In this document: positions 38,688-54,474 of the stretch, piece after piece
Numbering within the stretch: position 1 is the stretch's first letter
Layout of the letters: each line of letters starts with the position of its first letter
Source: Limnohabitans sp. Rim28
Lineage (GTDB): Bacteria; Pseudomonadota; Gammaproteobacteria; Burkholderiales; Burkholderiaceae_C
Length of the DNA stretch: 64,000 nt
Direction of reading: 5' to 3'
Assembly: GCF_000293865.2 (NCBI RefSeq)
Contig: NZ_ALKN02000005.1
Location: forward strand, 62,001-126,000
Made by a program: the position numbers and the translations under genes
The notes under the pieces: model-generated
The model's database searches: none
What the model was told of the DNA's origin: nothing
The model's input: the letters and a program-made list of their open reading frames with translations, nothing else

Positions 38688-38771
38688 GCCAGTTTTCCTT
38701 GTGGTGGGCTTGCTCAAGATGCGCCGGCCCTGCTTGTCTGAAGATTCTTTCACACCTGTGCGGTTCACCCG

Positions 38772-39263
38772 TCACGTTGACGGCAGCACCGGCCAGGTCG
38801 TCGTGAACTTGGCGCGTTTGGTGGCAAAAAACGCTTTCACGTTGCGCACATTGGCGTCTTGGGTGAACAGGGTTTGGCTGATCGCCAAGTAGTGCGGCAT
38901 GTCGCGGGCCTGCACCACCAGCATGAAGTCGGGACCGGGGGAGACGCGCCAGCACTGCTGAACCGCCTCGTGCGCGACGGCGCGGGCTTCAAACGCCTCC
39001 AGGTGTTCACTCCCTTGCTGGTCGAGCGACACCTCCACGAGGGCCGTGAGGCCGTGCCCAAGCGTGGCGGCGAGCCGGTCGGTGCTGAGCACGGCCACCT
39101 GCCGCTCGACCCAACCGCCCTCCACCAAGCGCTTGACGCGGCGCAAGCAGGTGGGTGGCGAGACCTTGACCTTTTCGGCCAGCGCCACATTGCTCAGGCT
39201 GGCGTCGCGTTGCAGGCTGTCCAGCAGTTGAAGATCGACCGCATCGAGTTCATTGTGTTCCAT
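38772..39263 (-). CDS. Lrp/AsnC family transcriptional regulator
   Basis: A 163-residue regulator with an N-terminal helix-turn-helix (VDLQLLDSLQRDASLSNVAL, then KVSPPTCLRRVKRL) and a C-terminal RAM/AsnC domain (ALVEVSLDQQ; VVQARDMPHYLAI). An alternative ATG 9 nt upstream exists. It diverges from glmS across a 137-nt, unusually AT-rich gap that must hold both promoters. Confidence 0.9.
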   Translation of the reverse strand: MEHNELDAVDLQLLDSLQRDASLSNVALAEKVKVSPPTCLRRVKRLVEGGWVERQVAVLSTDRLAATLGHGLTALVEVSLDQQGSEHLEAFEARAVAHEAVQQCWRVSPGPDFMLVVQARDMPHYLAISQTLFTQDANVRNVKAFFATKRAKFTTTWPVLPST

Positions 39264-39400
39264 ATAAGTCATTTTAGTGAAATAAAATTTCAAATTAGAA
39301 AATCAATGAAATTTTCATATAAATTTAGCTAATAAAATAATGAGAAATTTCTTTCAGATCGTTCTAGCATCCAACACCTACCCAGTTTTGGAGCTTCAAC
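39264..39400. promoter_or_regulatory. AT-rich divergent promoter region (Lrp-type regulator / glmS)
   Basis: A 137-nt gap much richer in A and T than its neighbours, with runs such as AAATTTAGCTAATAAAATAATG. Lrp-type regulators commonly bind AT-rich sequence, so self-control and control of glmS are plausible, but no specific operator can be named. Confidence 0.4.
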
Positions 39401-41260
39401 ATGTGTGGCATCGTCGGCGCAGTTTCTTCCCGCAACATCGTGCCCATCCTCGTGCAGGGCCTGCAAAGGCTGGAATACCGGGGCTATGACTCGTGCGGTG
39501 TGGCCGTGCACGCGGCCAGTCTGGGTGGCCAAGGCGGCTTGCAGCGCGCCCGCAGTACCTCACGGGTGGCTGAGCTGATGGACCAAGTGAGCGCCGACCG
39601 CATCGAAGGCGGCACCGGCATCGCCCACACCCGTTGGGCCACGCACGGCGCGCCTGCGGTGCACAACGCGCATCCGCACTTCAGCCATGGGACAGGCGCA
39701 GCGGACAACAAACCGGGACGCGTGGCTTTGGTGCACAACGGCATCATCGAAAACCACGACGAGCTGCGCGCCGCACTGCAGGCCAAGGGCTATGTGTTTT
39801 TGAGCCAGACCGACACCGAAGTCATTGCCCACCTGGTGGACAGCGTGTACGACGGCGACATTTTTGAAGCCGTCAAAACCGCCATCCGCCAGCTGCACGG
39901 CGCGTACGCGATTGCGGTGTTCCACAAAGACGAGCCGCAGCGCGTGATCGGTGCCCGTGCAGGTTCGCCTCTTATTTTGGGTGTGGGCCAGGGCGAAACA
40001 TTCCTCGCCAGCGATGCCATGGCCCTGGCGGGTGTGACCGATCAAATCCTTTACCTGGAAGAAGGCGACGTGGTGGACATCCAGCTGGGTAAATACTGGG
40101 TGGTGGACCGCGAACACAAAGCCGTGACCCGTGTGGTGAAAACCGTGCAGGCCCACAGCGGTGCGGCCGAACTCGGGCCGTACCGTCACTACATGCAAAA
40201 AGAAATCTTCGAGCAGCCCCGCGCCATTGCCGACACGCTCGAAGGCGTCGAGGGCATCACGCCTGAGCTGTTCGGGGATGGCGCGTATTCCACCTTCAAG
40301 GCAATTGACAACGTGTTGATCTTGGCCTGCGGCACCAGCTACTACAGCGGCTGCGTGGCCAAGTACTGGATCGAGGCGATTGCCAAAGTGCCCTGCCAAG
40401 TGGAAATCGCCAGCGAATACCGCTACCGCGAATCGGTGCCCAACCCGAACACCTTGATCGTCACCATCACACAAAGCGGCGAGACCGCCGACACCCTGGC
40501 CGCGCTGCGCCACGCGCAAAGCTTGGGGCTCCTGCACACGCTGACGATTTGCAATGTGGCCACCAGCGCCATGGTGCGCGAATGCCAACACGCCTATGTG
40601 ACCCGCGCCGGTACTGAGATCGGCGTGGCTTCGACCAAAGCCTTCACCACTCAGCTGGCGGGTTTGTTTTTGCTCACCTTGGCGCTGGCCCAAACCAAAG
40701 GCCGCTTGTCTGACGAAGAAGAAGCCGGGCACATCAAAGCCATGCGTCACTTGCCCGCTGCGCTGCAAGCCGTGTTGGCGTTGGAGCCGCAAATCATCGC
40801 TTGGGCACAAGAATTTGCCAGCAAAGAAAACGCGCTTTTTCTGGGCCGGGGCACGCACTACCCGATTGCATTGGAAGGCGCGCTCAAACTCAAAGAAATC
40901 ACCTACATCCACGCCGAAGCCTATGCGGCTGGCGAGCTCAAACACGGCCCGCTGGCCCTGGTGACCAGCGCCATGCCGGTGGTCACGGTGGCCCCCAACG
41001 ACCAGCTGCTGGAAAAGCTCAAGAGCAACATGCAAGAGGTGCGCGCCCGCGGCGGCGTGCTCTATGTGCTGGCCGACGGCGACACGAAGATTGAGAGCAG
41101 CGAAGGCGTCAACGTCATCCGCATGCCCGAGCACTACGGGGTGCTATCGCCCATTTTGCATGTGGTGCCGCTGCAGCTGCTGAGTTATCACACAGCTTGT
41201 GCGCGGGGGACGGATGTGGACAAGCCGCGCAATTTGGCGAAGTCGGTGACCGTGGAGTAG
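39401..41260 (+). CDS. glmS: Glutamine-fructose-6-phosphate aminotransferase (isomerizing)
   Basis: A 619-residue enzyme making glucosamine-6-phosphate. The N-terminal glutaminase begins MCGIVGAV with catalytic Cys2; two SIS domains follow ([32 protein letters not shown]), and the C-terminus is LAKSVTVE. The last 11 nt (41250-41260) appear to be supplied by the integrated element: the same end, with different third bases, recurs at 52155-52175 on the far side of the island. The protein sequence is preserved across this exchange. Confidence 0.97.
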
Positions 41261-41281
41261 TTCAGCTAGTGAGTAATTTTT
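41228..41281. other. Left junction (attL-like) of the glmS island
   Basis: glmS sequence up to 41249, then element sequence from 41250. The arm 41260-41281 begins GTTCAGCTAGTGAGTAA and is the reverse complement, with one mismatch, of the right arm. The spacer between the AC centre and the arm is 10 nt (41250-41259), as at the right junction. Confidence 0.75.
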
Positions 41282-41301
41282 ACGATCTGACGAGATTGGT
41301 C

Positions 41302-41574
41302 ATGGTCGTCAAAGTGAAAAGTAATGCGCTTTTTATTGGACCCTACTCAAGCAGTCAGCAACGGCTGTTTGACAGGGTCTACTTGTTGCGTGAACGAGAT
41401 CAACTGACTTTTGAAGCCATTGCCAAGCTGTTGACGAAGTCAGGCACACGCTCTGTCAATGGCTGCTTGTTAGGTGCTGAGCATGTGTTTTCCATCTACA
41501 AGAAAGGCAAGCACAGGCAAGAACGACTCACATTGAAGGTTGAACCAGAGTTGACAGACCTGTGGTTTGAATGA
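41302..41574 (+). CDS. Small putative DNA-binding protein next to the left island end
   Basis: A 90-residue basic protein (MVVKVKSNALF...). A helix-turn-helix-like stretch LTFEAIAKLLTKSGTRSVNG is followed by AEHVFSIYKKGKHRQERL. The frame is also open from a GTG at 41269 inside the left arm. Its position beside the attachment site, opposite the recombinase end, makes a recombination directionality factor or repressor plausible; this is inference only. Confidence 0.6.
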   Translation: MVVKVKSNALFIGPYSSSQQRLFDRVYLLRERDQLTFEAIAKLLTKSGTRSVNGCLLGAEHVFSIYKKGKHRQERLTLKVEPELTDLWFE

Positions 41575-41590
41575 TGTTCATTGGCGAGGT

Positions 41591-41636
41591 CATGTCCGTT
41601 GAAAGGACATGATGAGCGTCTTGTTACGGGACGGTT
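41591..41636. repeat. Hairpin plus degenerate island palindrome
   Basis: 41591-41611 is a 7-bp hairpin (CATGTCC/GGACATG). It is followed at 41614-41636 by a degenerate copy of the island palindrome family (TGAGCGTC ... ACGGGACGG). It sits just past the 3' end of the minus-strand wHTH gene at 41624 and may terminate it. Confidence 0.5.
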
Positions 41637-41860
41637 GGCAACTTAGCTGCGTACACACTCAAAACAAGTTGCTCATATTTGCAGAGACGGGTGCGAAGTA
41701 AGTCCGTGGCAACAATGAGTTGAAATCGCCTATCTTTGCTGTGCCCTACTATTTCACACCAGCCACCGTCAATTAGCTGCTCTAGGACATAGCGGATGCC
41801 GCGTTCACTGTACTTGAGAGAATTACAGCGCTCTTTGAGTGTTAGCGGCTTGTCTGTCAC
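41624..41860 (-). CDS. MarR/winged-helix-like regulator, N-terminus uncertain
   Basis: 78 residues from a GTG at 41860: LTLKERCNSLKYSERGIRYVLEQLIDGGWC resembles a winged-helix DNA-binding domain. The same frame stays open upstream to about 41992 and reads VVFLDLFILIAHSNV just before the GTG, which looks like the first helix of such a domain. No ATG, GTG or TTG start for that longer form was found, so the gene may be 5'-damaged or use a rare start. Confidence 0.6.
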   Translation of the reverse strand: MTDKPLTLKERCNSLKYSERGIRYVLEQLIDGGWCEIVGHSKDRRFQLIVATDLLRTRLCKYEQLVLSVYAAKLPTVP

Positions 41861-42229
41861 ATTGCTATGTGCGATCAGGATAAAGAGATCGAGAAATACG
41901 ACTTTGACAGAGAGGCAGGAAACGATCTTCCAAATTGCGTATGTTTTGAAAGCATTTGGTAAAGATGTCTTTTTGTTGGCTTTCTGCTGTGATCATTCGC
42001 TGCTGTTGACAGCGATGCGTGTATTCCCATAAAATAATTCCTACCAAAATTGCTGGCAATTTTTGCTTGTAATATTTATTGACGATTAATATTTACAAGA
42101 ATAAAATTCTTTTAAATAAATCAATTCTATTGCACGCAGTTGCGCACAACTTTTCAAAGAAACTAAGCAAAGATTGATTAATTGCCAAAAATTGCAACTT
42201 ATTCTCAAAAAACAAAAGAAGAATTTAAT
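41861..42229. other. Gene-poor AT-rich region in the island
   Basis: About 370 nt with no secure gene. The part up to 41992 may code for the N-terminus of the minus-strand wHTH protein. From about 42030 the base composition becomes very AT-rich, suggesting promoter sequence for the secreted-protein gene at 42230 or separately acquired DNA. Confidence 0.4.
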
Positions 42230-42511
42230 ATGAAAAAATTATTATTTATTCCTGCTCTTATGGCAACTATTATGTTATCGGCGCAAGCCCAAGAATCAGA
42301 ATGGAAATACATAGGAAGCGTTAGCAAATATAAATACTACTTGGCGCCTCTGTCCAAAGGACGTTACTATACGTTTTCACCAGGGGGATTTAGAGAGATA
42401 TTGGTAATAAGCAAAGGTGGTAGTATGGATTTGGCGCTTCCAGATAGATACCATATTGATTGCTCTAAAGATCTTATAAAAAATAAAACAGAATTTAATT
42501 GGAGTTCGTAA
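42230..42511 (+). CDS. Small predicted secreted protein
   Basis: 93 residues with a clear signal peptide (MKKLLFIPALMATIMLSAQA, cleavage likely before QESEWKY). The mature part is short, aromatic-rich (YKYYLAPLSKGRYYTF) and has one cysteine. No family recognised. Strongly AT-rich coding sequence unlike the rest of the window; probable cargo. Confidence 0.7.
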   Translation: MKKLLFIPALMATIMLSAQAQESEWKYIGSVSKYKYYLAPLSKGRYYTFSPGGFREILVISKGGSMDLALPDRYHIDCSKDLIKNKTEFNWSS

Positions 42512-42624
42512 AAAGTGGTTCTATGTTGGAGGCGATAATGCAAGAGGGATGTGAATTGCGCTAAAAAATTATTGATATTTAATTCAACATGAAATATTTA
42601 CTTTGATCACATGGTGTGTGACCT

Positions 42625-43113
42625 TTAAGAAAACAACTTCGGGGCTGCGCTAGCTGTTCTCAATTTGACTTGGGCTTTCAATAGATTGGTTTGCGCCTTC
42701 TTCAATTTCGCTTGCTGATTGAGTCTCGTGGCTTGGTCAGCAAGCGATTTCACTTGTAGCTCGGCGGGACTCTAGACCCGAGCGTCAGCTCCAGCTTCTG
42801 AAACGCACGAAATAGCATCATTACCAGTTTTTCTGGTTTGACGCTGTTTGTGTATTCTTCGATCTGGAGCAGTCGCTTGAGCTTGGATCTCGCAGATCCT
42901 AGGGGACTTAGTGACGAGTTCATTGATCGACAAAACATTCCCTGTCCCATACAATCGAGTCAGCATCTGTCGTGCTTGTTGCTTGTTGCTGGTTGCTGGT
43001 TGCTGGTTGTTGGCAGTGATCGTGGTTTTTGCTATGCTAACTGCACCGTTGATGACGACACGGACTGTGGCAATGTAGGACTGAGGAATGTTGGTGAGTT
43101 CGTAGATCTTCAT
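42625..43113 (-). pseudogene. Decayed paralogue of the island gene at 44057-44419
   Basis: The N-terminus (MKIYELTNIPQSYIATVRVV) and C-terminus (ELQVKSLADQATRLNQQAKL, ending KLFS) align with the intact copy (MKINEFTSKLNTYIATVRVV; ELQVQSLAKKAEGY). Both parts are in one frame but are separated by a stop codon at 42772-42774 and a longer, unrelated middle segment. A repetitive CAACAAGC-like stretch near 42980 also suggests slippage damage. Confidence 0.7.
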
Positions 43114-43205
43114 GTAATTATTTATACGATCTAATTTTTAAAATGATTATTAATTAATTAGCTAATAATATTAATATTTTCATGTTCAATCATCAAAATC
43201 ACGCA

Positions 43206-43931
43206 ATGAAAAAATTTATCAAAATCATCTTTCTTTTGTCATTTGCTTTAACCAATAATATATATGCAAACACGCAGCCAAGTTTTAATTGCTCAAAAGC
43301 TAAATCAGTTGTTGAAAAAATAATTTGTGGTGATCAAGAGCTTGCTGAGAAGGATAGAAGATTAAATAGTCTATTTAAAGAAGCGAGAATACAAGCATCT
43401 AATATAAAGGATTTTGAAAGAGATGCCGTTGAAGCTTGGAAAAAAAGAGAAAGCCAATGTCAAGATCGTGAGTGCATAAGAAATTGGTATGATTCAAGAA
43501 TATCTTTATACTCAAAGAATGAAGTAAAAAATTTTTTATTAGGGATTTGCGAAATTCCCCATCGATCCTCATTAACTGAATGTAGTATTAGAGCAATTGA
43601 ATTGATGGATGGCACAGCAGGTAGCTATCAAATCTTCAAAGAAAATACTATTAAATTCATCGTTCGAAGCTCAAACAGTGTGCCTGAAAAATTAAGATAT
43701 AAAAATGAATTCGATGTCAAAGTTACTTATGATGTAACTAGAGAAAACGAAATCAAAGTAACAACAGTAGACACTAGTGGCAAATGCTATTCGTGGAAAA
43801 AATATCAGAAACAAGGGAGTGCAATTATGGTGCAAAAAGGTGAAATGTATGGGTCATGCAGTGATGTTCAGAAATTAACCCATGACTCTTTTGATGAAAA
43901 TTATAAAATGAAATGGGGTATTCCTAAATAG
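43206..43931 (+). CDS. Secreted LprI-like (DUF1311-like) protein
   Basis: A 241-residue predicted exported protein. The signal peptide (MKKFIKIIFLLSFAL...) is followed by SFNCSKAKSVVEKIICGDQE and a later CQDRECIRNWYDSRIS, the cysteine pattern of the LprI/DUF1311 family of lysozyme-inhibitor-like proteins. The C-terminal ~130 residues are unassigned, with more cysteines. The coding sequence is very AT-rich and probably foreign even to the rest of the island. Confidence 0.75.
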   Translation: MKKFIKIIFLLSFALTNNIYANTQPSFNCSKAKSVVEKIICGDQELAEKDRRLNSLFKEARIQASNIKDFERDAVEAWKKRESQCQDRECIRNWYDSRISLYSKNEVKNFLLGICEIPHRSSLTECSIRAIELMDGTAGSYQIFKENTIKFIVRSSNSVPEKLRYKNEFDVKVTYDVTRENEIKVTTVDTSGKCYSWKKYQKQGSAIMVQKGEMYGSCSDVQKLTHDSFDENYKMKWGIPK

Positions 43932-43956
43932 TGTTAATTAAAAATAATCAGAATTT

Positions 43957-44058
43957 TTAATCGAATTTAATTAACCTCGCCCTCTCGCTTTCGGCAGCCC
44001 TACCAATTTGACCATCAATCGATCCGTCGCGCATTAGCTCTTTTGTCTTGCGAAGTTC
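43957..44058 (-). pseudogene. C-terminal fragment of a DUF6641-like gene
   Basis: Reading the minus strand gives ELRKTKELMRDGSIDGQIGR then AAESERARLIKFD and a stop. This matches the C-terminus of the intact DUF6641-like protein at 44937-45383 (LDGSLDAQIEQAADSVKARF). No start or N-terminal part remains; it begins at the stop of the neighbouring gene. Confidence 0.6.
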
Positions 44059-44419
44059 AGCTAGCGCTGACGCCACGACTTGCTTTCATCAAGTTCTGCT
44101 GAGCCTTCGCCATCTGCTGACGAGCCTTCAATGCCTTTTCTTGTTGTTTGTAGCCCTCTGCTTTTTTGGCGAGTGACTGAACTTGGAGTTCTTGTGAACT
44201 GAGGGTCTTTGTAGCCTCTGTCATTTCTTCATCTTCAGCAAACACTTGATTGATGTTCAAGACATTGCCATCGCCATACGTGCGTGTTGAAATTGCACGT
44301 GCTTGCTGTAGCGTGTCTGCTGCGATCATGGTTCGTGCTGTCGTGCTCCCATCACGCAAGACGACACGAACTGTCGCAATATAGGTATTGAGTTTTGATG
44401 TGAATTCATTGATCTTCAT
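44057..44419 (-). CDS. Island hypothetical protein (intact member of a duplicated family)
   Basis: A 120-residue protein. An N-terminal beta-rich domain (YIATVRVVLRDGSTTARTMI, QARAISTRTYGDGNVLNIN) is followed by a helical, Gln/Lys-rich C-terminus likely to form a coiled coil. A decayed second copy lies at 42625-43113, and a C-terminal remnant may lie near 46190. The function is unknown. It diverges from the gene at 44443. Confidence 0.7.
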   Translation of the reverse strand: MKINEFTSKLNTYIATVRVVLRDGSTTARTMIAADTLQQARAISTRTYGDGNVLNINQVFAEDEEMTEATKTLSSQELQVQSLAKKAEGYKQQEKALKARQQMAKAQQNLMKASRGVSAS

Positions 44420-44442
44420 GTTTGTATTTATCAGGAGAAAAC

Positions 44443-44895
44443 ATGAAGACACAGAAACAAATATTGGCAGAACTACTGTCTGAAATCTCCGGTCTCAAAT
44501 TGATGGTGCAGAGAATTCATGGATATGTAGTAGAAATCCAAGACAAGGAAAGCAGACGCCTGCTGACTGAAGTTGACATGCTCAGCAAGCCTGCAACTTT
44601 GACAGTCAATGAAGATCAAGAGTGCATGGAATACGACAAGTCAAGCATTCACCTAGATCGACAAGAGAGATTGCTTATAAATGGCGGTGTTTACTTTTGC
44701 ATTCGTGGAGAAGACCTATATGAGGAAGGTGATGATTTCAAAATGTTGATGATCTGGGAGTTCAACAACCCAAACGAAGTGAAGTTGATTGCAAATGCCG
44801 TTTGTATTGGCAAAGACGGAAAAGAAGACGAACACTTTCGGGACTGTGTTTACGAAGGAGAAATTCATCCGCATATGCTTAAAGAAGACAAGTGA
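44443..44895 (+). CDS. Island hypothetical protein
   Basis: A 150-residue acidic protein (MKTQKQILAELLSEISGLKL...), with AGGAG just upstream of the ATG. The N-terminal third looks helical and the C-terminal part beta-rich (GGVYFCIRGEDLYEEGDDFK). No family recognised. It ends at one of the island palindromes. Confidence 0.65.
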   Translation: MKTQKQILAELLSEISGLKLMVQRIHGYVVEIQDKESRRLLTEVDMLSKPATLTVNEDQECMEYDKSSIHLDRQERLLINGGVYFCIRGEDLYEEGDDFKMLMIWEFNNPNEVKLIANAVCIGKDGKEDEHFRDCVYEGEIHPHMLKEDK

Positions 44896-44918
44896 GTGTC
44901 CCGTAACTGGACGCTCAC
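44892..44918. repeat. Island palindrome, copy at 44.9 kb
   Basis: A 10-bp stem (44892-44901 with 44909-44918, one G-T) with the 7-nt loop CGTAACT. It overlaps the stop of the upstream plus-strand gene and precedes the 3' end of the minus-strand DUF6641 gene, so it lies between convergent genes. Confidence 0.75.
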
Positions 44919-44936
44919 CATTCATCCCAGATCAGG

Positions 44937-45383
44937 TCATTTGGCAAAACGAGCTTTGACTGAATCCGCTGCCTGTTCGATCTGAGCATCTAGCGATCCA
45001 TCGAGAACTGCCTCTTGCAACTTCGACAATACAGCGATCAGTTCATCGCCGTTCGCAACTTCCACGGCGTTCTTGCCCTTCGCCAGATCGATTACCTTGT
45101 TGCCATAGAACAACTGCACAGCTACACGCTTTGTATCAATGTTCGTGAACCACCAGGTCTTGACTCGCTTCGATACCTCAATCATTGAAGTCAAACCAGA
45201 AACCTCATCACGCTCTTTTCTGATGCGCTTGACCGTGAATATTTCACCCTTATTCATCGCCAGTGCCATAGCGATCTGAACCTTCAATTTCTCATTGAGT
45301 TTGTTGCGCCGAAAGACAACCGGATCGATTGAATTTTGGCGCTTTGCATTGACTAATTTCAGACTGGAAAGAATCGCACTCAT
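44937..45383 (-). CDS. DUF6641 family protein
   Basis: A 148-residue basic protein: AILSSLKLVNAKRQNSIDPV, VSKRVKTWWFTNIDTKRVAV, and the C-terminal DGSLDAQIEQAADS. This pattern matches the phage- and plasmid-associated DUF6641 family, of unknown function. TCTCC (AGGAGA on the minus strand) precedes the start. A C-terminal fragment of a second copy lies at 43957-44058. Confidence 0.7.
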   Translation of the reverse strand: MSAILSSLKLVNAKRQNSIDPVVFRRNKLNEKLKVQIAMALAMNKGEIFTVKRIRKERDEVSGLTSMIEVSKRVKTWWFTNIDTKRVAVQLFYGNKVIDLAKGKNAVEVANGDELIAVLSKLQEAVLDGSLDAQIEQAADSVKARFAK

Positions 45384-46518
45384 TAAAATCTCCTTGTTTG
45401 TTGATGAGTGCTGTTAAGCCTATTGCCGTGTCCATTTGATTCCTAGTCCTTGGTGTTTGGTTCTTTCATGGAAATATTTGGTTATGGTTGGATTGGCATA
45501 AATACATGTTCAAGCACTGGATCAAAAGTTAGCATCACTTCAAAGCATGCCGACAATCCGTTCTCATTCGTGTAGTGGCGGTAGATGTGAGGTTCAGCAC
45601 AGTCTTTACAGAACTACTCATGCCACGAGTAACCCCGCTATGCCTGACATAGCAAAAGAGTCTGTATCGGATGGGGTGTCTTGATATTCAGGACAAAAAC
45701 AGCAATCAAGAACAGGTCTGCCATGACTTCAAATTCACCTTAGAAGAAGTCTTAAAAATAGTTGTGGAACGGTGCGGAACAGAGCCGAGAGCAGGTCATT
45801 GCTGAGAGAAAAAAAATGAGCGCAACGAAAGGCATGGTCACATAGATCATGACCGAGACAATTGTCGGAAACGGCATGTAGTGCGTGATCCACTGAGAAA
45901 AAGTCTAATGGCGACGGACAGGTACAGAGATGTACTCACTCACCCCTGCTTAAGGGTGAGTGCGGCTCAAGTACAGATGACAGAAAAGAAGTCCAGAAGA
46001 CCGATAAATTTCAATCGTTATTTCTTATTAAGTTAGTCCGAACTGAAGGGCTGAGCAAACGAATGAGCGAAGCGAGATGAGTGCGAAAGCACTTAGCGAA
46101 CTGCAGGTTCGCTATCAGCGTAGACAACATAGATGCTGAATTGATGAATGGACTGGTACGGGTGTTGCGTCAGGTATACGGATTCAGATCGATCTCGGGG
46201 CTGCGCTAGCAACAAACACATGAACAGGGCAGCTAGCGCAGAGGCACGCGGCATTCATTTAGCCCATACGTCAGTACCTATCAGATCCACGCACAAGCGC
46301 ACATCGTCAGTCCCACAACACAAAGCATGTGTTGGCGTGACGAACGCTCAGATTCGAAACGCACATGAAAACCAAAACTAATTGAAGGAAGCTTCGATTC
46401 CTGCGCAAGTTGTTGATTCATATGGGTTTCCAATATTTCGCCAAAAGGCTTGTCCTACCTAATCAAAGGGAAGAGACTAAATACACGTCAATCATTTGAT
46501 ATGTAAGGAAACTCAGAA
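45384..46518. other. 1.1-kb gene-free region in the island
   Basis: No convincing coding sequence; an open frame at 46148-46381 lacks coding character. The segment 45491-46119 is packed with hairpins (see the ncRNA entry). At 46195-46210 there is a 16-bp exact match to 42639-42654 (C-terminal codons of the decayed island gene), and CTGCGCTAGC at 46201-46210 recurs inverted at 46232-46241. Confidence 0.6.
45491..46119 (+). ncRNA. Candidate large structured non-coding RNA
   Basis: Pairings seen by eye: GGATT+GGCAT (45491-45500) with ATGCC/AATCC (45548-45560); TACTC/GAGTA (45615-45631); GCTATG/CATAGC (45637-45653); TCTTGAT/ATCAAGA (45679-45711); GTACA-GAGA-TGTAC (45922-45935); a 9-bp stem 45937-45945/45954-45962; and a closing stem GCTGA/TCAGC (46050-46054/46115-46119) enclosing AGTGC-GAAA-GCACT (46080-46093) and AGCGAAC/GTTCGCT (46095-46113). 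Two GNRA tetraloops read only on the plus strand, which sets the orientation. No known RNA family is recognised; ends are uncertain. Confidence 0.4.
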
Positions 46519-47121
46519 ATGTCCCAAGCAAAAGTGCTCACTGAAAAAGAAGTCCGCAAAGTCCTTATCTACATTGCAAGTCGTAAACACGCATCACGCA
46601 ACCGAGCAATGTTCGTACTGCTCAACGCAACTGGAATGCGTGTTGGGGAGTTGGCAGCACTTCGCTTGTGTGATGTTTTGACACCGACTGGTGAGATCGT
46701 TGAGGAAATTCGTCTTGCCGCAGATCAGACAAAGGGATCACGGGGACGTGTTGTGGTTTTGAATCAGAAGGCGCAGGAGGAAATCAAGAACTACTTGATG
46801 ACTCGATTCAAGCTGAAAGACTTGTTGGCAGTGACCATGACCGACACATCACGGGCATTGTTTACGACACAGAAAAACCCGAACCGTGGCTTTTCCTCGT
46901 CCACACTCGCACAGCACTTCCATTACATGTACAAGGGCTCGGGCATCATGGGTGCTTCATCCCACAGTTCGCGCAGGTCATTCATCACGAAATTGAGCGA
47001 AATGGGCGTTTCAGTGCGAGTGTTGATGGATTTAGCAGGTCACCGCAGCCTTGCAGTCACACAGAAATACATCGAGAGCAATCCCAAGCTCATGCGCTCA
47101 GCGGTCGAATTGTTAGCATGA
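46519..47121 (+). CDS. Tyrosine recombinase, catalytic domain only
   Basis: A 200-residue phage-integrase-family protein. All catalytic residues are visible: R41 (GMRVGEL), K72 (QTKGSRG), H149-x-x-R152 (HSSR), H175 (LAGHRSL) and Y184 (QKYIE). It lacks the usual N-terminal core-binding and arm-binding domains, so it is far shorter than island integrases. It may act at internal sites, resolve dimers or invert DNA; the serine recombinase is the better candidate for integration. Confidence 0.88.
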   Translation: MSQAKVLTEKEVRKVLIYIASRKHASRNRAMFVLLNATGMRVGELAALRLCDVLTPTGEIVEEIRLAADQTKGSRGRVVVLNQKAQEEIKNYLMTRFKLKDLLAVTMTDTSRALFTTQKNPNRGFSSSTLAQHFHYMYKGSGIMGASSHSSRRSFITKLSEMGVSVRVLMDLAGHRSLAVTQKYIESNPKLMRSAVELLA

Positions 47122-47124
47122 AAA

Positions 47125-47145
47125 AAGCCAGCACGTAGCTGGCTT
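47125..47145 (-). terminator. Rho-independent terminator for the minus-strand gene at 47171
   Basis: On the minus strand an 8-bp stem (AAGCCAGC/GCTGGCTT) with a 5-nt loop is followed by a run of T from 47126 to 47121. It overlaps the 3' end of the plus-strand recombinase gene, and an island palindrome lies between it and the minus-strand gene. Confidence 0.75.
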
Positions 47146-47146
47146 G

Positions 47147-47174
47147 CTGAGCGTCCCGTGACTGGACAGTTCAG
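47147..47174. repeat. Island palindrome, degenerate copy at 47.15 kb
   Basis: CTGAGCGTCC-CGTGACT-GGACAGTTCAG: the inner GTCC/GGAC and outer CTGA/TCAG pair, with a gap on the right side. The loop CGTGACT matches the family. It lies between the convergent recombinase gene and the gene at 47171. Confidence 0.6.
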
Positions 47175-47635
47175 GCAGGGAATTGAGACTGAATGAAGCG
47201 GCGGTGAATGGCTTCATGCAGAAAGTCATGTTCCTCTTGGTTTTCATTCACATATGAAGTCAGCGGTGATAGCAGGTACTTGCTATCCGGTGGAATCCGC
47301 GAGTAGTCAGTGCCGCAACGATCTATTTCACTGGCGATGGACTCCAATTGCTTGAGGTCGGATTCAGATGAAACACAGTAAATCGCTTCGTCATTTCTGA
47401 TTAGATGGGCGTAGGTCAGATTTCCAGGATCAACATCAGGAATCACCAGAACATTCTTGAAGAACACCAATGGATGCTGGTATCTGGCAACATCCCATAT
47501 TTGATGTACATCTGGGTGATGCTTTAAGTACGGGCTGTAATCTGACAGTATGACATTGGAGGTCTTGTCAGACTTTATATGCAAATACAACTTCACATTC
47601 GGGACGGTATAGAAGATATAGGCTTTGGGAAACAT
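47171..47635 (-). CDS. Island hypothetical protein
   Basis: 154 residues (MFPKAYIFYTVPNVKLYLHI...), aromatic- and His-rich, soluble. No family recognised. It is the distal gene of a minus-strand group with the AAA+ ATPase and its upstream neighbour, separated from the ATPase gene by a perfect island palindrome. Confidence 0.6.
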   Translation of the reverse strand: MFPKAYIFYTVPNVKLYLHIKSDKTSNVILSDYSPYLKHHPDVHQIWDVARYQHPLVFFKNVLVIPDVDPGNLTYAHLIRNDEAIYCVSSESDLKQLESIASEIDRCGTDYSRIPPDSKYLLSPLTSYVNENQEEHDFLHEAIHRRFIQSQFPA

Positions 47636-47651
47636 AAGAGTCTTTCAGATG

Positions 47652-47682
47652 GCATGAGCGTCCAGTCACGGGACGCTCATGC
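47652..47682. repeat. Island palindrome, perfect copy
   Basis: A 12-bp perfect stem (47652-47663 with 47671-47682; GCATGAGCGTCC/GGACGCTCATGC) with loop AGTCACG. It lies between the 3' end of the AAA+ ATPase gene and the start of the next minus-strand gene. Confidence 0.85.
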
Positions 47683-47689
47683 AGTCATA

Positions 47690-48400
47690 TCACTTGATGA
47701 CGGTCAGCACAGGTTGCATGAGCTGCGGTGCTGGCACAGCTGGCAGTGGCATGTTGCGCAAATTCATGAAAATCAGCTTGTCAAGAACTGACATGTAGTC
47801 TCGTACGTCGCTGGTCTTGATGGTCATTGTGTTCAGATAGTGCAGAACACTGGCATCAGGCAAGATCAAATTCTCTTGCGTCAAGATGTACTGAGCGCGG
47901 TTTAGAAATTGATCAGGCGTAATCCGCGTGAAGTTGTATTTGTCGCAACGGGAACGAATGGCATTTTCAAGATTCATCGGATTATTGGTTGTAATGATGA
48001 CCAGAAGGTCATCTTTCAAGCGGTCCATCGCGGTCCATAATTTGTTCAGTGAACCCGAGTACTTGTCGAGTTCATTGAAGACGATCACAACTCGGTCGTT
48101 ACTAGACGCACCGTACATGCCAGCGGTATTTTTGACCATGGAAAAGTATGTGTACAGGTCTGCCTGCGCCATGACGGTGTCAATAGGGTCATTCAACAGT
48201 AAGTAAGGGCAGTGCTTGGTCAGTTCATGTGCGATCAAGTTCGCCAGAGTCGATTTGCCGTTGCCATTCGTGCCACTGAGGAAAAGGTGGCGCGTTCTGA
48301 AGCCCTGAAAAATCAGCTTTAGCTGCTGCTCGTTGAAGGCGTTGTTCAAGACCACATCGTTGATGTGCGTGGGTGCGTATTTAACTTCGCAGGTAGTCAT
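47690..48400 (-). CDS. AAA+ ATPase, replication-factor-C/clamp-loader-like
   Basis: A 236-residue AAA+ protein. YAPTHINDVVL resembles the RFC box; Walker A is GTNGNGKST (residues 43-51), Walker B is VVIVFNELD with Asn109 in place of the usual Asp, sensor 1 is TTNNP, and an arginine finger SRC (R141) is present. It lacks the long collar domain of full clamp loaders. In this setting it may load or regulate an island replication, recombination or defence factor; the partner is unknown. Confidence 0.8.
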   Translation of the reverse strand: MTTCEVKYAPTHINDVVLNNAFNEQQLKLIFQGFRTRHLFLSGTNGNGKSTLANLIAHELTKHCPYLLLNDPIDTVMAQADLYTYFSMVKNTAGMYGASSNDRVVIVFNELDKYSGSLNKLWTAMDRLKDDLLVIITTNNPMNLENAIRSRCDKYNFTRITPDQFLNRAQYILTQENLILPDASVLHYLNTMTIKTSDVRDYMSVLDKLIFMNLRNMPLPAVPAPQLMQPVLTVIK

Positions 48401-48472
48401 ATTTAAGCTCCGTATTTTCAATAAGGTAATAAATGGGGACACGAGCCAAGCTCGTGCCCGCGCATATAGTCA

Positions 48473-49264
48473 TCAAGCAGCTTTTTTCATCTGCTGATCG
48501 TTGGAGGCATGCTGTTGAGGCTTCAGCTTTGCAGCTTCGGCGGTCACGGCATCGTCTTCGTCTTGCTTTGCGACGATTTGCTTCGCAGCTTGCTTGAGCA
48601 AGGCGTTGTAAAGACCGTCAGAAACTTCAGTGAGCACATAGGTCACATTGAAGTTGCCACTAACATCGCCGACTGCCAGCATGATGTTGAGCTTTGCAGG
48701 GCTAAAGCCATCCACGCTTACAGTAGCAAGCGGATTCACTTGTGCTTCAGTAATCAATTGCTCAGCAGTCTCTTTCGCCTGCTTGCGCTTTTCTAGACGA
48801 TCTTTCGCTTCAGCACTCTGAACCATCTTGCGCTTGATCTCTTCAATGCCACCTTCGCTGACGATCCACTGCGGCAGTTGAGCAGCTGTGACGTTGTGCG
48901 AAATCGCGGCGTTGAGCACATAGCTGTAGCCGTGGGCACGCTTGCGATCACTGTTGAATACGAAGCGCACGAACAGATTGAGCGTCGGACTGTTCTTTTG
49001 AGTCTTGACCTTCAACTCTGCAAGTCGAGAAATCAGCTCACTGCGAAGTGTGCGTTGATCGTCTTTCTTAGCCTCAATGAAGTTGCTATTGAACACATCC
49101 AGACATTGCGCCAGTAAATCGTAGAGACCTTCGTTCGCTTTCTTGAATGCTGTTTGTTCCCAGTTATCACGAGCAATAGACAGAGCGTCCAGTGACTGGA
49201 CGATGCTTGTCGCAAATGCGGTGTTTAAGGCGGATGGGGTGAAGGTTTTAGTTTGCTTGCTCAT
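48473..49264 (-). CDS. Island hypothetical protein upstream of the AAA+ ATPase
   Basis: 263 residues (MSKQTKTFTPSALNTAFATS...), with AAAGGAGA just upstream of the ATG. Mostly helical, with a charged stretch (KMVQSAEAKDRLEKRKQAKE) likely to form a coiled coil and a Gln/Lys-rich tail. No family recognised. It precedes the AAA+ gene by 72 nt and is probably co-expressed. A copy of the island palindrome core lies inside its 5' region. Confidence 0.7.
   Translation of the reverse strand: MSKQTKTFTPSALNTAFATSIVQSLDALSIARDNWEQTAFKKANEGLYDLLAQCLDVFNSNFIEAKKDDQRTLRSELISRLAELKVKTQKNSPTLNLFVRFVFNSDRKRAHGYSYVLNAAISHNVTAAQLPQWIVSEGGIEEIKRKMVQSAEAKDRLEKRKQAKETAEQLITEAQVNPLATVSVDGFSPAKLNIMLAVGDVSGNFNVTYVLTEVSDGLYNALLKQAAKQIVAKQDEDDAVTAEAAKLKPQQHASNDQQMKKAA
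49185..49203. repeat. Island palindrome core inside a coding region
   Basis: CGTCC-AGTGACT-GGACG core (49186-49202) with the same 7-nt loop pattern as the intergenic copies. It lies within the N-terminal coding region of the gene at 48473-49264 and is the only copy not at a gene end. Confidence 0.5.
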
Positions 49265-49394
49265 AGGTTTCTCCTTTAGTTGAGCTATCAACATCCAACT
49301 AGGCACTGCGCTTTCGTTGAGTCGATATAAGGAATATACCTACTTCATCAAGTAATTTTATATTCATATAATTAGTCAAATTATTTGTTGACAT

Positions 49395-50327
49395 ATGGCT
49401 ATCAATCTTCTTCCGTGGGTACTTAGAGGCGGTGACTTTTCAAAGCCAGGCTGGCATTCGCAGCCAACTGCTGCCTATCAATTGATGTTCGAGTTTTTGC
49501 GAGTTAGTCCAAGTTATGAACTTGCTAGAAAAGAACGTACTACTGGATTGAGCCAAGAGGAAAAGACAGCTCTGCCTGATGACTTTGAGAAAGTCCTCAA
49601 GACATATGACTTGATCGGCGACGTGAACTGTGTGTTGTTTCGGTCGTGGTGGTTAAAGCGCGGCTTGAAGGTGTTCGGTAATCCTTACAGCAAGCCCGAT
49701 GTCCATGAAATTTCTGTCATACCCGCAGGAAGCGACATGGACAACAAGAAAGTTTTGAATTCGCTTCAAACAGACTTCTCAGATAAAAGACGAGATGAAG
49801 GATTGACAGCTTCGTTGCTGATTTCATTGCCACTTGATTTGAAGACAACCGAAATACTGCGAAAAGTTCGGAAGTTGCTGAATGCTTATAAGGACAGGGA
49901 TGTGGGTGCACCGTCACCACCGAAGATCAAATTGATGGGAAAGCGATTTCACGCCAATCCGATGTTCAAGGGTTTGCGACTGCTTTGGTTTAGAGCGGCT
50001 AAACCTAATTGGGAGTTGTGGCGATTAGGTGCGAAAGCTCAATTGAGTGACAGCTACTCAAAAGTGCTTGACCCTGCCGCACCACGCAAGCCGAAAGATC
50101 CGATTGAAATGGATGATCGCATCACCATGAGCAAGATCACATTCCGTGCTGTTCATCGCTTCGAACACATTGCTGAAAACGCCGCACGTGGACGATTCCC
50201 ATGCGCTGACCCGGTGGATATGTCAGTCTTTAACTATCCCGAGATTGCTCAAAGGTTGTTGAAGCACTCAAAGTGGGTGAAGAGTCAGAAATTGAAATGG
50301 GTAGAAACTCATAAAAAGGAAAAATGA
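49395..50327 (+). CDS. Island hypothetical protein, possible DUF6499-like N-terminus
   Basis: A 310-residue basic protein. The N-terminal segment AAYQLMFEFLRVSPSYELAR recalls the WEFLRRNPxY motif of DUF6499-type proteins seen in mobile elements; this is a weak resemblance. The remainder has a basic mid-region (PKIKLMGKRFHANPMFKG) and no known domain. It diverges from the 263-residue protein gene and precedes the serine recombinase gene. Confidence 0.6.
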   Translation: MAINLLPWVLRGGDFSKPGWHSQPTAAYQLMFEFLRVSPSYELARKERTTGLSQEEKTALPDDFEKVLKTYDLIGDVNCVLFRSWWLKRGLKVFGNPYSKPDVHEISVIPAGSDMDNKKVLNSLQTDFSDKRRDEGLTASLLISLPLDLKTTEILRKVRKLLNAYKDRDVGAPSPPKIKLMGKRFHANPMFKGLRLLWFRAAKPNWELWRLGAKAQLSDSYSKVLDPAAPRKPKDPIEMDDRITMSKITFRAVHRFEHIAENAARGRFPCADPVDMSVFNYPEIAQRLLKHSKWVKSQKLKWVETHKKEK

Positions 50328-50328
50328 C

Positions 50329-50345
50329 CGTCCCGTAACGGGACG
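50329..50345. repeat. Island palindrome, copy at 50.3 kb
   Basis: CGTCC-CGTAACG-GGACG, a 17-bp palindrome symmetrical except for its central base. It begins 2 nt after the stop of the upstream gene, before the serine recombinase. Confidence 0.75.
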
Positions 50346-50429
50346 CTTGTGAACCAAAATGGGCACATTAGAGCTATCTGGCTAGGAAATGATGCCCAAA
50401 GGGAATATGCTTAGTTTTTAGGCGAAAAA

Positions 50430-52118
50430 TTGATTTTTGAGAGCAATTCAGTGACTGGTGCCACTTCAGCCGATAAGACGCTTCACATTTACACCCGTGT
50501 GTCTACGGTCGCACAGGCAGAGCAGGGCACATCACTTGAGTCACAGCATGACCTAGGGGTCAAGAAGGCTAAAGAGCTTGGGTTTGACTTCAAGGTATGG
50601 AATGAAGGTGGACGCAGTTCCCACCATGAAAACATCGCTGATCGCCCAGAACTGAATGCTCTGTATGTTGCGATGAAGGCAGGACAAGTAAAGCATCTTT
50701 GGGTTTATGACCAGTCCAGACTTTCGCGGAACGACCAAGTCGCTTCTGTCTTTCGGTATGAGTGCAACAAGCAGGGTGTCACGCTCTACACAAAAGACGG
50801 TCAGTTTGATCTGTCATCACCACAAGACAAGTTTCTGAAACAGTTGTTGGACGCTGTTGCCGAGTTTGATAACGTCACACGGGCAGAGCGAACAAGACTT
50901 GGAAAGCTCAATCGTGTTCGTTCGGGCAGCTGGCACGGTGGACCTCCACCATACGGCTACAAGCTAGACGACAGAAAACTCGTCGTTGTTGAAGAAGAAG
51001 CGAAATGGGTCAGGCGCATCTTTCAAGAGGTCGTGAAAGGTGGCGCGGCAACGCATATCAAGCAAGTCTTAGATTCAAATGGTGTGAGTCCAAGAAGAAA
51101 GAAAGGCTTGTGGACGATTGGATCAATCAATGCGCTACTGAAGAATACGCACTATTCAGGGCACTACATCTACACCGACAGCAAGTCAGGTCAGACGATT
51201 GAAGTTCAATGTCCCAGCATCATTGACCAGACCACTTGGAATGCGGCTCAGCACAAGCGTTCCAGCGAGGTGCTCAGAAATTCACAGAAGAACGCTACTG
51301 TTAAGAACTTCTATCTTTTGCGTGATTTTATGTACTGCGCTCATTGCGGTCGTCCGATCAGTGGACGAATCATCAAGGCTCGTACAGAGTCTTCTTATTA
51401 CTGTCCCAATAAAGAGCGTGACTGGGTTGAAAAGGGTGGATCAGACACGCCATGGAAAAGGGGCACGGGTTGTGGCTTCGCTCGTGCCATGAACATTCCA
51501 CAGACTGACAAATTGGTGTGGGAACTTGTCACATCACTTCATGCGAAGTCCAGCACATTGAAAGAAGAGGTTAAGAATCGGTTGCTCAAAGAAAGCGGCA
51601 TCAAGATTCGCACCGATGCTGAGATCAGAGCATTACAGGCAAAGATTCGCAGGCTCCAGAAGAGCTATGGCTCCATGAGCGAAACGCTTGGCAATCTTGA
51701 AGCGAATAAGTTGATCGGCAAGATCAATGATGTGAGTTACGACACCACAGTTCAGAGAATTCGGGATGAACTCGGCAACATTGAAACGGAGCTTGCCAGC
51801 GCACGGCTAGAACTGGCTGGTACTGCGGAATCTCGGAAGTGGGTGAACTGGTTGAAAGCGTTTGGCGACGAAGTAGAGAAGCTGGACGCACTGACTGATG
51901 AACAAAAGAAGGAATACATCGGTGGCTTGGTAAAGCGGATTGATGTGCGCTACGACTCTAAAAATCGTGAACACCACTTAACGTTGACCATGAGTCTGCC
52001 CATCGTCGATGACGGTATCAAGAAATTGCGATCTGGGCGACAGGGACGGGAATACGAAGTCATTCCAGGAACAGACAAAGTCGCTCTAGTCTCCAAAAAA
52101 AAAGACGGTCGAGGATAG
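50430..52118 (+). CDS. Large serine recombinase (putative integrase of the glmS island)
   Basis: A 562-residue protein. The N-terminal resolvase domain has the nucleophile in YTRVST (Ser25) and YDQSRLSRN; a recombinase domain follows (GPPPYGYKLDDRKL; TIGSINALLKNTHYSG), then a zinc-ribbon (MYCAHCGRP; SYYCPN; GTGCGF) and a coiled coil (IRALQAKIRRLQKSYG). The start is a TTG at 50430 or a GTG at 50451. It lies against the right island end, the usual position of such integrases relative to attP. Confidence 0.93.
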   Translation: MIFESNSVTGATSADKTLHIYTRVSTVAQAEQGTSLESQHDLGVKKAKELGFDFKVWNEGGRSSHHENIADRPELNALYVAMKAGQVKHLWVYDQSRLSRNDQVASVFRYECNKQGVTLYTKDGQFDLSSPQDKFLKQLLDAVAEFDNVTRAERTRLGKLNRVRSGSWHGGPPPYGYKLDDRKLVVVEEEAKWVRRIFQEVVKGGAATHIKQVLDSNGVSPRRKKGLWTIGSINALLKNTHYSGHYIYTDSKSGQTIEVQCPSIIDQTTWNAAQHKRSSEVLRNSQKNATVKNFYLLRDFMYCAHCGRPISGRIIKARTESSYYCPNKERDWVEKGGSDTPWKRGTGCGFARAMNIPQTDKLVWELVTSLHAKSSTLKEEVKNRLLKESGIKIRTDAEIRALQAKIRRLQKSYGSMSETLGNLEANKLIGKINDVSYDTTVQRIRDELGNIETELASARLELAGTAESRKWVNWLKAFGDEVEKLDALTDEQKKEYIGGLVKRIDVRYDSKNREHHLTLTMSLPIVDDGIKKLRSGRQGREYEVIPGTDKVALVSKKKDGRG

Positions 52119-52132
52119 ATATTTATGAACAC

Positions 52133-52178
52133 AAAAATTACTCACTACCTGAACCAGTCTGTCACGGTGGAGTAAAAG
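52133..52178. other. Right junction (attR-like) with glmS 3'-end remnant
   Basis: The arm 52133-52154 (begins AAAAATTACTCACTACC) mirrors the left arm with one mismatch. Then a 10-nt spacer to the AC centre (52164-52165), followed by CGGTGGAGTAA, the original last codons of glmS. Across the junction the phrase S-V-T-V-E-stop is readable (52158-52175). Confidence 0.75.
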
Positions 52179-52288
52179 TTTGAAGCGCCCATCGCCTTGA
52201 ACCCCACACGGTTAATTCGCGGTCTGGCTCGGGTTGGTGATAATTTCTGCAGCTTCGCGCCGCATGCGCACTTAACCCGCACCGATCC

Positions 52289-53974
52289 ATGACAATTCAC
52301 TCCGCCTTGTCCCAGCCGCGCACCCCGTCTTCGGGTCTGTCCCATGTTCGAGGTGTTGACGATCAGCCCCTGAGCAAGGCTTGTTTGCACGAGTTGCTGG
52401 CCCAAGCTGTGCAGCGCTGGCCTGAGCGCGACGCCGCCATTTTTTGTGCCGAAGGCATCCGCTGGAGTTGGGCGCAATTTCAGAGCCAGGTGAATGCCGC
52501 CGCAGCCGCCTTGCATGCGCTGGGTGTGCGGTGTGGCGACAGGGTGGGCATCTGGTCGCCCAACCGATCCGAGTGGTTGGTCACGCAATTTGCCACTGCC
52601 CGCTTGGGGGCGATTTTGGTCAACATCAACCCCGCCTATCGGGTGGCCGAGTTGGCTTATGCGCTGAACAAAGCCAGCGTATCGGTTTTGGTCAGTGCCA
52701 GCCGTTTCAAAACCAGCGATTACTTGGGCATGCTGGTTCAGCTGGGCTTCGGTGCTGCTGACACCCAGCTGCCCGCTTTGCGGCGTGTGATTCGACTGGG
52801 TGAAGGGGGCAACGCCGACATGCTCGATTGGGCGACCTTGATGGCACAAGGCCACACCAGCCTGCCCGATGCACAAAGCCTGCATGCGCACCAGCCCATC
52901 AACATCCAGTTCACCAGCGGCACCACGGGCGCGCCCAAAGGGGCCACCCTCACGCACCACAACATCGTGAACAACGCCATCGCGGTGGCCGCCTGCATGC
53001 GGCTGTCGGCGCAAGACCGGCTGTGCATTCCGGTTCCGCTTTACCACTGCTTTGGCATGGTGTTGTCGGTCTTGGCTTGCACCTCGGTCGGTGCTGCCAT
53101 GGTTTTTCCGGGTGAGGGTTTTGACCCGGTGGACACCCTCGCAGCCGTTCAGTCTGAGCGCTGCACCGCTTTGCATGGCGTACCGACCATGTTCATTGCC
53201 GAGCTCGACCATCCTGAGTTTTCCAAGTTTGATTTGCACACCTTGCGCACCGGCATCATGGCGGGTGCACCTTGCCCCATCGAGGTGATGCGGCGGGTTC
53301 AGTCGCTCATGCACATGCGCGAGGTGACCATTGCTTATGGCATGACGGAGACCAGCCCGGTGAGCTTTCAAAGCGCGACCGACGACCCACTCGACAAGCG
53401 GGTCACCACGGTGGGCCGCGTCTTGCCGCACCTCGAAGTGCGCATCGTCGATGCCCAGGGCCAAACCGTGCCGATTGGTGAAACGGGTGAGCTGTGCACC
53501 CGGGGTTATTCGGTCATGCAGGGTTACTGGGACGAGCCCGAACGCACGGCCGACACCATCCAAGACGGCTGGATGCACACGGGCGATTTGGCCACCATGG
53601 ATGCTGAGGGCTATTGCAACATCGTGGGGCGACTCAAGGACATGGTGATTCGTGGCGGCGAGAACATCTATCCGCGCGAAATCGAGGAATTTTTATTTCG
53701 CCATCCCAAAATTGCCGCGGTGCAGGTGTTCGGTGTGCCGGATGAGCGGTATGGCGAGCAGCTGTGTGCTTGGGTGGTTCAGCGCCCGGGGGCCGAATGC
53801 ACCGAACAAGAGCTTCGGGTCTTTTGCGAGCAAAACATCGCGCACTTCAAAGTGCCCCGTTACATCCGCATGGTCGAAGAGCTCCCGGTCACGGTGACGG
53901 GCAAGCCGCAAAAATTTTTGATGCGCGAGGCCATGGTGGCCGAATTGGGTCTGAGCCGCCCGGCTTCGGCCTGA
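52289..53974 (+). CDS. Acyl-CoA synthetase (AMP-binding family)
   Basis: A 561-residue adenylate-forming enzyme activating a fatty or carboxylic acid to its CoA thioester. Motifs: [56 protein letters not shown], and the C-terminal lysine in TGKPQKF. Chain-length preference cannot be read. It was the original downstream neighbour of glmS before island insertion. Confidence 0.93.
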
Positions 53975-53987
53975 ACGCGAGGCCTTC

Positions 53988-54443
53988 GTGAAGCCCTCAG
54001 CACCGCCCAGTCCCATTGAGGTCCTGTCTTCGGCCGTGCATGGCAAAGGCGTGTTTGCCACACGCCACATGGCCGCAGGGGAACGGGTCATCGAGTACGC
54101 GGGTGAGCGCATCAGCATGGCCGAAGCCATTCGCCGCCACCCGCACGATGCGGACCAGCCTGACCACACCTTTTATTTTCACCTGGACGATGGTCAGGTC
54201 ATTGATGCGCTGTACGGTGGCAATGACTCGAAGTGGATCAACCATTCCTGCCGTCCTAATTGTGTGCCCGACGAAGTCAAAGGTCGGATTTACATGTTGA
54301 CGCGCAGGCCTGTCTTCAAAGGGGAGGAGCTGACCTTTGACTACGGCCTGTTCAGCGACGAGCCGATGACCGATGCGCTGAAAGCCCGGTATGCCTGCCG
54401 CTGCGGCGCCACCAAGTGCAGAGGCACGATGCTGTCGGACTGA
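53988..54443 (+). CDS. SET domain-containing protein
   Basis: A 151-residue protein with a compact SET domain: HGKGVFATRHMAAGERVIEY, WINHSCRPNC, ELTFDYG, and a post-SET cysteine cluster (CRCGATKCRG). SET proteins methylate lysines; bacterial substrates are mostly unknown. It starts 13 nt after the acyl-CoA synthetase stop. A 6-bp hairpin (54444-54449/54460-54465) follows. Confidence 0.9.
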   Translation: MKPSAPPSPIEVLSSAVHGKGVFATRHMAAGERVIEYAGERISMAEAIRRHPHDADQPDHTFYFHLDDGQVIDALYGGNDSKWINHSCRPNCVPDEVKGRIYMLTRRPVFKGEELTFDYGLFSDEPMTDALKARYACRCGATKCRGTMLSD

Positions 54444-54474
54444 GCAGCCGGGCGCTGCTGGCTGCCCGCGCCGA

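Follow-up and report, generated by a model that had tools for sequence, protein, structure and literature searches.

Staphylococcal cassette chromosomes (SCC) are described to insert at the 3′ end of rlmH and to combine variable cargo with a replication-type core (PMC6222049, PMC7581432), the latter carrying an MCM-like helicase (PMC7581432). For diverse large serine recombinases, common targets within conserved coding sequence have been reported, such as a Mg-chelatase/protease gene or a prolyl isomerase (PMC10083194, Durrant et al. 2022); the main text of that study mentions neither glmS nor glucosamine, supplementary tables aside. The glmS gene is the home of Tn7 and of type I-B CRISPR-associated transposons (CAST I-B) (PMC10293859), and Tycheposon-type islands of freshwater Methylophilaceae have glmS at their border (PMC10872708). 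Within the literature covered (subscription papers and supplements lying outside its scope), no description was found of a serine integrase or recombinase at glmS, and reports on glmS islands and site-specific recombinases, on prophages or integrative elements at glmS and on Limnohabitans islands likewise describe no such element. The present analysis concerns a window of 64,000 nucleotides from Limnohabitans sp. Rim28 (the whole stretch analysed; contig NZ_ALKN02000005.1, positions 62,001 to 126,000), in which an island encoding a large serine recombinase occupies the last codons of glmS. This island is very probably an integrative element, the circular form of which is inserted by the serine recombinase through recombination of the attachment (att) sites attP and attB at an AC dinucleotide.

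The island comprises 10,915 bp between two AC dinucleotides and is poor in guanine plus cytosine (GC), with 0.45 overall and 0.32–0.50 per kb fully inside it versus 0.58–0.63 outside. A preliminary description of the window had delimited it as 41250–52164; the position holds, with the trivial correction that these ends fall inside the AC dinucleotides. Target gene, junctions and recombinase are arranged as follows (ORF, open reading frame).

39401–41260, forward strand: glmS, 619 aa (ORF); its last bases, 41251–41260, are supplied by the island
41218–41281: attL (B half plus P′ half), centred on AC 41249–41250
41249–41250: left crossover dinucleotide AC
41260–41281: left arm of the attP dyad, inverted repeat of the right arm
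50430–52118, forward strand: large serine recombinase (integrase), 562 aa (PF00239, PF07508, phrog_95)
52133–52154: right arm of the attP dyad, inverted repeat of the left arm
52133–52196: attR (P half plus B′ half), centred on AC 52164–52165
52158–52175, forward strand: second GlmS-tail copy, SVTVE plus stop codon; from 52164 on, the original host end
52164–52165: right crossover dinucleotide AC
52289–53974, forward strand: acyl-CoA synthetase of the right host flank (ORF); located 254 bp after glmS in the relative G014

The att sites considered here are reconstructed sequences. Left and right arm are inverted repeats matching at 21 of 22 positions, as opposed to a best 22-mer match of 13–15 between the 200-bp junction blocks in 30 shuffles; the agreement is far above chance, and chance repeats as source of the arms were ruled out by the shuffle controls. 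All other inverted 22-mer pairs with at least 20 matches within 38001–56000 belong to one short palindromic repeat family. Nine nucleotides separate the AC from each arm, resulting in a site of 64 bp (22 + 9 + 2 + 9 + 22). The joined attP is symmetric at 21/22 positions (offsets 10–31), while 2000 one-arm shuffles never exceeded 14; the rejoined attB reaches only 4/22, i.e., no dyad, and reads LAKSVTVE plus stop codon. The preliminary description had anticipated this architecture in detail, namely the position of the 22-bp inverted arms with their one mismatch, the exact arm-to-AC spacing within a 64-bp AC-centred dyad, the end of the integrase gene 14 nt from the right arm, the rejoining of the flanks to an intact glmS end, and the layout of a large-serine-integrase attP; all of these were recovered, as were the large serine recombinase domains, the position beside the att site and a non-dyad attB.

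Both junctions are readable in 11 islands: the window, L054, L055, L091 (Limnohabitans 15K), G015 (split over two contigs), L092, L093, L094, L062 and the viral contigs L103 and L105. At the left junction, host-variable sequence extends to the AC and island-constant sequence follows beyond it, and at the right junction the order is reversed; this switch at AC supports the crossover there. Sizes range from 8.4 to 15.3 kb among the 10 measurable islands (split G015 excluded). Since the centre of attP mimics the conserved GlmS-tail codons, with attL and attP both reading on into TVE plus stop codon, the codons for the GlmS end come with the island itself; attL still encodes LAKSV-TVE, the essential gene survives and its protein is unchanged after insertion. 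Accordingly encoded tails (AKSVTVE plus stop codon) are found in all 11 readable attL sites. The C-terminal part of the window's glmS is 97 % identical to that of Limnohabitans sp. 15K, which harbours a system of 88 % identity. Conservation of attB mixes coding constraint and recombinase preference, the two being inseparable.

The recombinase harbours the domains PF00239 (2.4e-20) and PF07508 (1.6e-16) and matches the integrase family phrog_95 at 1e-81. The zinc ribbon model PF13408 scores 21.6 bits, below its cut-off of 25.3; the four-cysteine feature of a zinc ribbon is nevertheless present, C303, C306, C325 and C348 being invariant among 12 aligned relatives, as is the catalytic-type motif YxRVS. 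A recombinase search of genome contigs yielded 23 loci. Each of the 12 with a recombinase of 44–93 % identity ends at GlmS-tail sequence (11 SVTVE, one TVTVE) 31–136 nt beyond the recombinase match. They originate from Limnohabitans, Polaromonas, Oxalobacteraceae, Polynucleobacter, Zwartia, Rhodoferax and Nitrosomonadales as well as less certain bins. GlmS-tail sequence was found in the available DNA of none of the remaining 11 loci (22–36 % identity), nor in any of 15 distant recombinase loci from relatives. Viral-contig relatives (38–56 % identity) have a GlmS tail at most 140 nt from the recombinase match in 7 of 10 cases (two SVTVE, one TVTVE, four SITVE); the viral contig L106 is cut before the GlmS-tail point and not scorable, and for L099 and L100 the host gene is out of view and the target was deduced from the att sequence. 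The comparison with relatives suggested in the preliminary description thereby came out in its favour, both in the 12 loci with at least 44 % identity and in the joined attP of a circular-looking relative.

In a tree of 29 rows, 23 recombinases constitute one clade (support 98/99), of which 20 target glmS and two other sites, with one being unreadable. The two non-glmS rows nest within the clade, which fits a presumably ancestral targeting of glmS with later re-targeting in these two. Upon shuffling of the target labels on the tree, 500 of 500 shuffles were as low as observed, few rows being without the glmS label. The branch of L102 is very long and its placement uncertain. In the clade member L101, the recombinase end leads into an unrelated ORF, the presumed junction showing GTCAC; L101 is probably re-targeted. 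Judging from these loci, insertion into glmS is apparently a habit of the recombinase family across many bacteria rather than a one-off. The use of glmS by a serine integrase, termed unusual in the preliminary description, is indeed undescribed in the literature found, but represents the standing target of the whole clade.

Further observations relate to individual clade members. In L092, L093 and L060 the recombinase frame enters the att site and ends in GlmS-tail codons (SVTVE or TVTVE plus stop codon), so that one stop is shared by both readings. The contig L060 itself (5.6 kb), assigned to Klebsiella pneumoniae by binning, has a recombinase typical of the betaproteobacterial clade, and this assignment is probably a binning error. 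In L098 and L110 the recombinase adjoins attL facing glmS, i.e., the opposite arrangement; the recombinase of L110 is interrupted.

Contig L100 (10,053 bases) has identical first and last 99 bases (direct terminal repeat) and displays the order recombinase, dyad attP, left-end gene. Apart from a tandem array, which could also produce it, this order is expected from the joined form only, and the circular-looking L100 may represent the predicted circular form. With L100 counted, 9 of 12 attP sites have a dyad exceeding each of the 2000 shuffles. Contig L099 has the order recombinase, att, left gene and, further on, a second recombinase and att, then further left-arm-like sequence. It contains a tandem of two or more different elements plus this third left-arm-like sequence past the second recombinase, resembling a tandem array, and a 69-bp-period repeat gene lies between the tandem elements.

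Besides the recombinase, the following genes were discerned in the window island; Pfam and PHROG scans covered the 10 main proteins.

41269–41574, forward strand: left-end gene, 101 aa, start codon within the left arm; present in 8/8 complete islands; candidate directionality factor
42772–43113, reverse strand: 113-aa paralogue of the gene at 44057–44452 (same blastp cluster)
43182–43931, forward strand: 249-aa secreted-looking cargo protein, weak LprI match
44057–44452, reverse strand: 131-aa protein without assigned role; relatives in L053, L054 and L055
44937–45383, reverse strand: DUF6641 protein, 148 aa (PF20346, phrog_31551)
46519–47121, forward strand: single-domain tyrosine recombinase, 200 aa (PF00589)
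47690–48442, reverse strand: RFC/T4-gp44-like AAA ATPase, 250 aa (PF00004, phrog_168)
48473–49306, reverse strand: 277-aa core protein that accompanies the AAA gene; weak alignment across 8 islands
49395–50327, forward strand: 310-aa core protein; its single blastp cluster is represented in all 8 islands

In the integrated state, the left-end gene starts 8 nt past the glmS stop and is presumably co-transcribed with glmS. Position and conservation render it a candidate recombination directionality factor, the match to known domains being marginal (weak PF07508/helix-turn-helix resemblance in 3/8 members). The proposed course of events would start with the recombinase pairing attP of the circular form with the glmS end, followed by strand exchange at AC, presumably catalysed by this enzyme, under preservation of the GlmS protein sequence. 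In excision, the small gene at the left end would act as directionality factor, and the RFC-like AAA module may replicate or maintain the circle. The AAA family profile matches the RFC small subunit at 2e-32, T4 gp44 at 1e-31 and bacterial gamma/tau at 2e-16. Going by chain length, the AAA protein stops short of the collar region; used as query against viral contigs, it retrieved no relative.

Core and cargo genes were compared across eight complete non-viral islands. The left-end gene and the 310-aa family are present in 8/8 and the AAA ATPase in 7/8 (all but L055); the family neighbouring the AAA gene reaches 8/8 only when two weakly similar clusters (3 + 5) are joined. Structure prediction of two core proteins was of low confidence (mean predicted local distance difference test 50.7 and 55.5) and assigned no function. 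A second small recombinase occurs in all eight islands, being of the tyrosine type in five and of the small serine type in three. That of the window matches XerD/invertase-type NCBIfam models below cut-off and probably acts in a resolvase/invertase role. PADLOC, applied to selected cargo, returned anti-phage-type matches in 4/8 islands: a PDC-S37/Hhe-like helicase-nuclease in L093, a type III restriction-modification pair in L094, a C5 methyltransferase in L062 and PDC-M53A in L091. From the window island, one selected cargo protein was scanned and gave no match.

Close recombinases are rare, being detected in the own genome and one other of 60 relatives, in the own genome plus 1/399 at the order level and solely in the own genome among 369 at the class level; a broader profile at the phylum level added 2/398, one of them L110. 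Searches of plasmid and phage records retrieved recombinases of <60 % identity only. Overall, 29 other glmS ends were read, four of which (G015, G011, G022 and G018) have arm-like sequence, accompanied by an island in G015. In G011, an 86 %-identical left-end gene lies beside restriction-modification-type genes (one blastp match, type III methyltransferase). Because G011 retains this gene, the arm-like sequences of G011, G022 and G018 are read as probable remnants of decayed islands. The uninterrupted glmS–acyl-CoA synthetase junction that the preliminary description had proposed to search for was recovered in G014 as regards gene order, with the same acyl-CoA synthetase next after glmS; the site is not scarless, about 150 bp of unrelated sequence lying in between.

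Several observations weigh against integration at glmS by this recombinase as proposed here. No GlmS-tail sequence lies near the recombinase in the clade members L101 and L102, and the dyads of L092, L103 and L105 match at 13/22 positions, below the shuffle maximum of 14–15. The recombinase of L100 is only 39 % identical, and its terminal repeat could also stem from a tandem array. A scarless empty glmS junction was not found in the relatives read. G011, G022 and G018 have arm-like sequence and no close recombinase in the genome; arms in relatives devoid of the recombinase are what the preliminary description had named as refuting its proposal, and they do occur in these 3/29 loci, which are here read as remnants. 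Recombination itself is, at this locus, a prediction from sequence. The same three remnants, together with the rarity of the element (own genome and one close relative of 60), could indicate that the island is a fixed relic, immobile now; this is judged quite improbable, as the recombinase ORF is open over 562 aa, the arms match at 21/22 positions and both att sites are intact.

The AAA ATPase resembles phage clamp loaders, relatives are listed as viral in IMG/VR and sizes of 8.4–15.3 kb would suit a satellite. A phage satellite or defective prophage with serine integrase, moved in a helper-phage capsid, is still considered unlikely: the 10 scanned proteins contain no structural or packaging family except for a sub-significant scaffold match of the DUF6641 protein (E 0.007), and no phage record holds a recombinase of >60 % identity. 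This reading bears on transfer and does not conflict with the integration mechanism. The small recombinase at 46519–47121, with its XerD-like PF00589 domain and its retention in 5/8 islands, could in principle be the true integrase and the serine recombinase mere cargo. This is very improbable in view of L092–L094, which share the glmS junctions without a tyrosine recombinase of that cluster; moreover, it is the serine recombinase that adjoins the junction and tracks the target, and a 2-bp core with a dyad attP is the serine pattern. Least probable, to a nearly negligible degree, is a Tn7-like transposon, suggested by glmS being the Tn7 homing gene (PMC10293859). Among the 10 island proteins scanned, no Tns family was detected by Pfam; TnsA, TnsB, TnsC and TniQ are absent from the matches at E ≤0.1, in agreement with the preliminary description. 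Tn7 inserts downstream of glmS with target duplication, unlike the island, which crosses over inside the coding end at a 2-bp core. Integration by the serine recombinase is the preferred explanation.

Repeats were additionally observed within the elements. A 25-bp palindrome (about TGAGCGTCCcGTnACgGGACGCTCA) occurs in the window island in six dispersed, mostly intergenic copies (41613, 44893, 47148, 47655, 49182 and 50325). Its core GTCCNGTNACNGGAC is found at five places genome-wide, all within the window island, and in one copy in L091; an operator, a hairpin terminator or a module boundary are candidate roles. An invertible segment between the repeats at 47148 and 47655 was considered and dropped, these being two of the six copies of the dispersed palindrome. 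In L100, a palindrome CTCTAATCAGAG occurs at seven places near gene ends (e.g., 1104, 2862, 3874, 4665, 7081, 7962 and 9015) and a second motif is repeated there as well, as though each element possessed a private intergenic repeat. The paralogous small genes at 42772–43113 and 44057–44452 of the window island share their strand and have direct repeats in common.

Among known systems, SCC at rlmH rather than Tn7 appears to be the nearest working analogue, and by this analogy the island may be regarded as functionally cassette-chromosome-like, with glmS in place of rlmH. Like SCC (CcrAB/CcrC) and the Enterococcus cassette chromosome, it employs a large serine recombinase; like SCC, it occupies the 3′ end of a conserved housekeeping coding sequence with attL in the gene, and it combines variable cargo with replication-type core genes. 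NCBIfam models for CcrB (80.9 bits, cut-off 900) and CcrA (67.8 bits, cut-off 700) are among the best, albeit sub-threshold, for the recombinase. Target gene, host phylum and recombinase clade all differ from SCC. The island possesses an RFC-like AAA protein instead of the MCM-like helicase, and a single recombinase beside attR, in contrast to the ccr genes, which lie centrally in SCC. No cch/cch2 helicase was recognized among the 10 main island proteins, the best matches of the AAA protein including no helicase model. Membership in SCC thus fails on target, recombinase type and helicase. The freshwater Methylophilaceae islands are likewise betaproteobacterial genomic islands with glmS at one border, but use tRNA-Met and a tyrosine recombinase (xerD), with glmS merely being the first conserved gene past the island. 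Tn7 and CAST I-B resemble the island in using this end of glmS as a landing site that is safe and conserved; they rely on a transposase and TnsD targeting, for which no homologue was found among the scanned island proteins, and insert outside the gene.

Tentatively, and with the balance somewhat on the doubtful side, the island may belong to an undescribed lineage of cassette-chromosome-like elements of Beta- and Gammaproteobacteria, which are counted as viruses in IMG/VR and have their ancestral home in glmS. Such elements would replicate as circles via an RFC-like clamp-loader module without a polymerase of their own and carry anti-phage cargo; their attP would have evolved as a GlmS-tail mimic keeping the host alive, and island-specific palindromes would mark exchangeable modules. 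If true, the end of one essential gene would have been reached convergently by two unrelated machineries, Tn7 TnsD and a serine-recombinase clade, which would make the GlmS tail a natural experiment in the choice of durable safe sites by mobile DNA. From a practical point of view, the clade would offer serine integrases with predicted matched attB and attP in a gene conserved across bacteria. Given the RFC-like core and the MCM-like helicase described for SCC (PMC7581432), one may ask whether replication parts of archaeal/eukaryotic type have been recruited repeatedly by bacterial cassette chromosomes. With respect to the shared target, Tn7 lands beside glmS, whereas the serine clade would land inside it with a coding repair patch.

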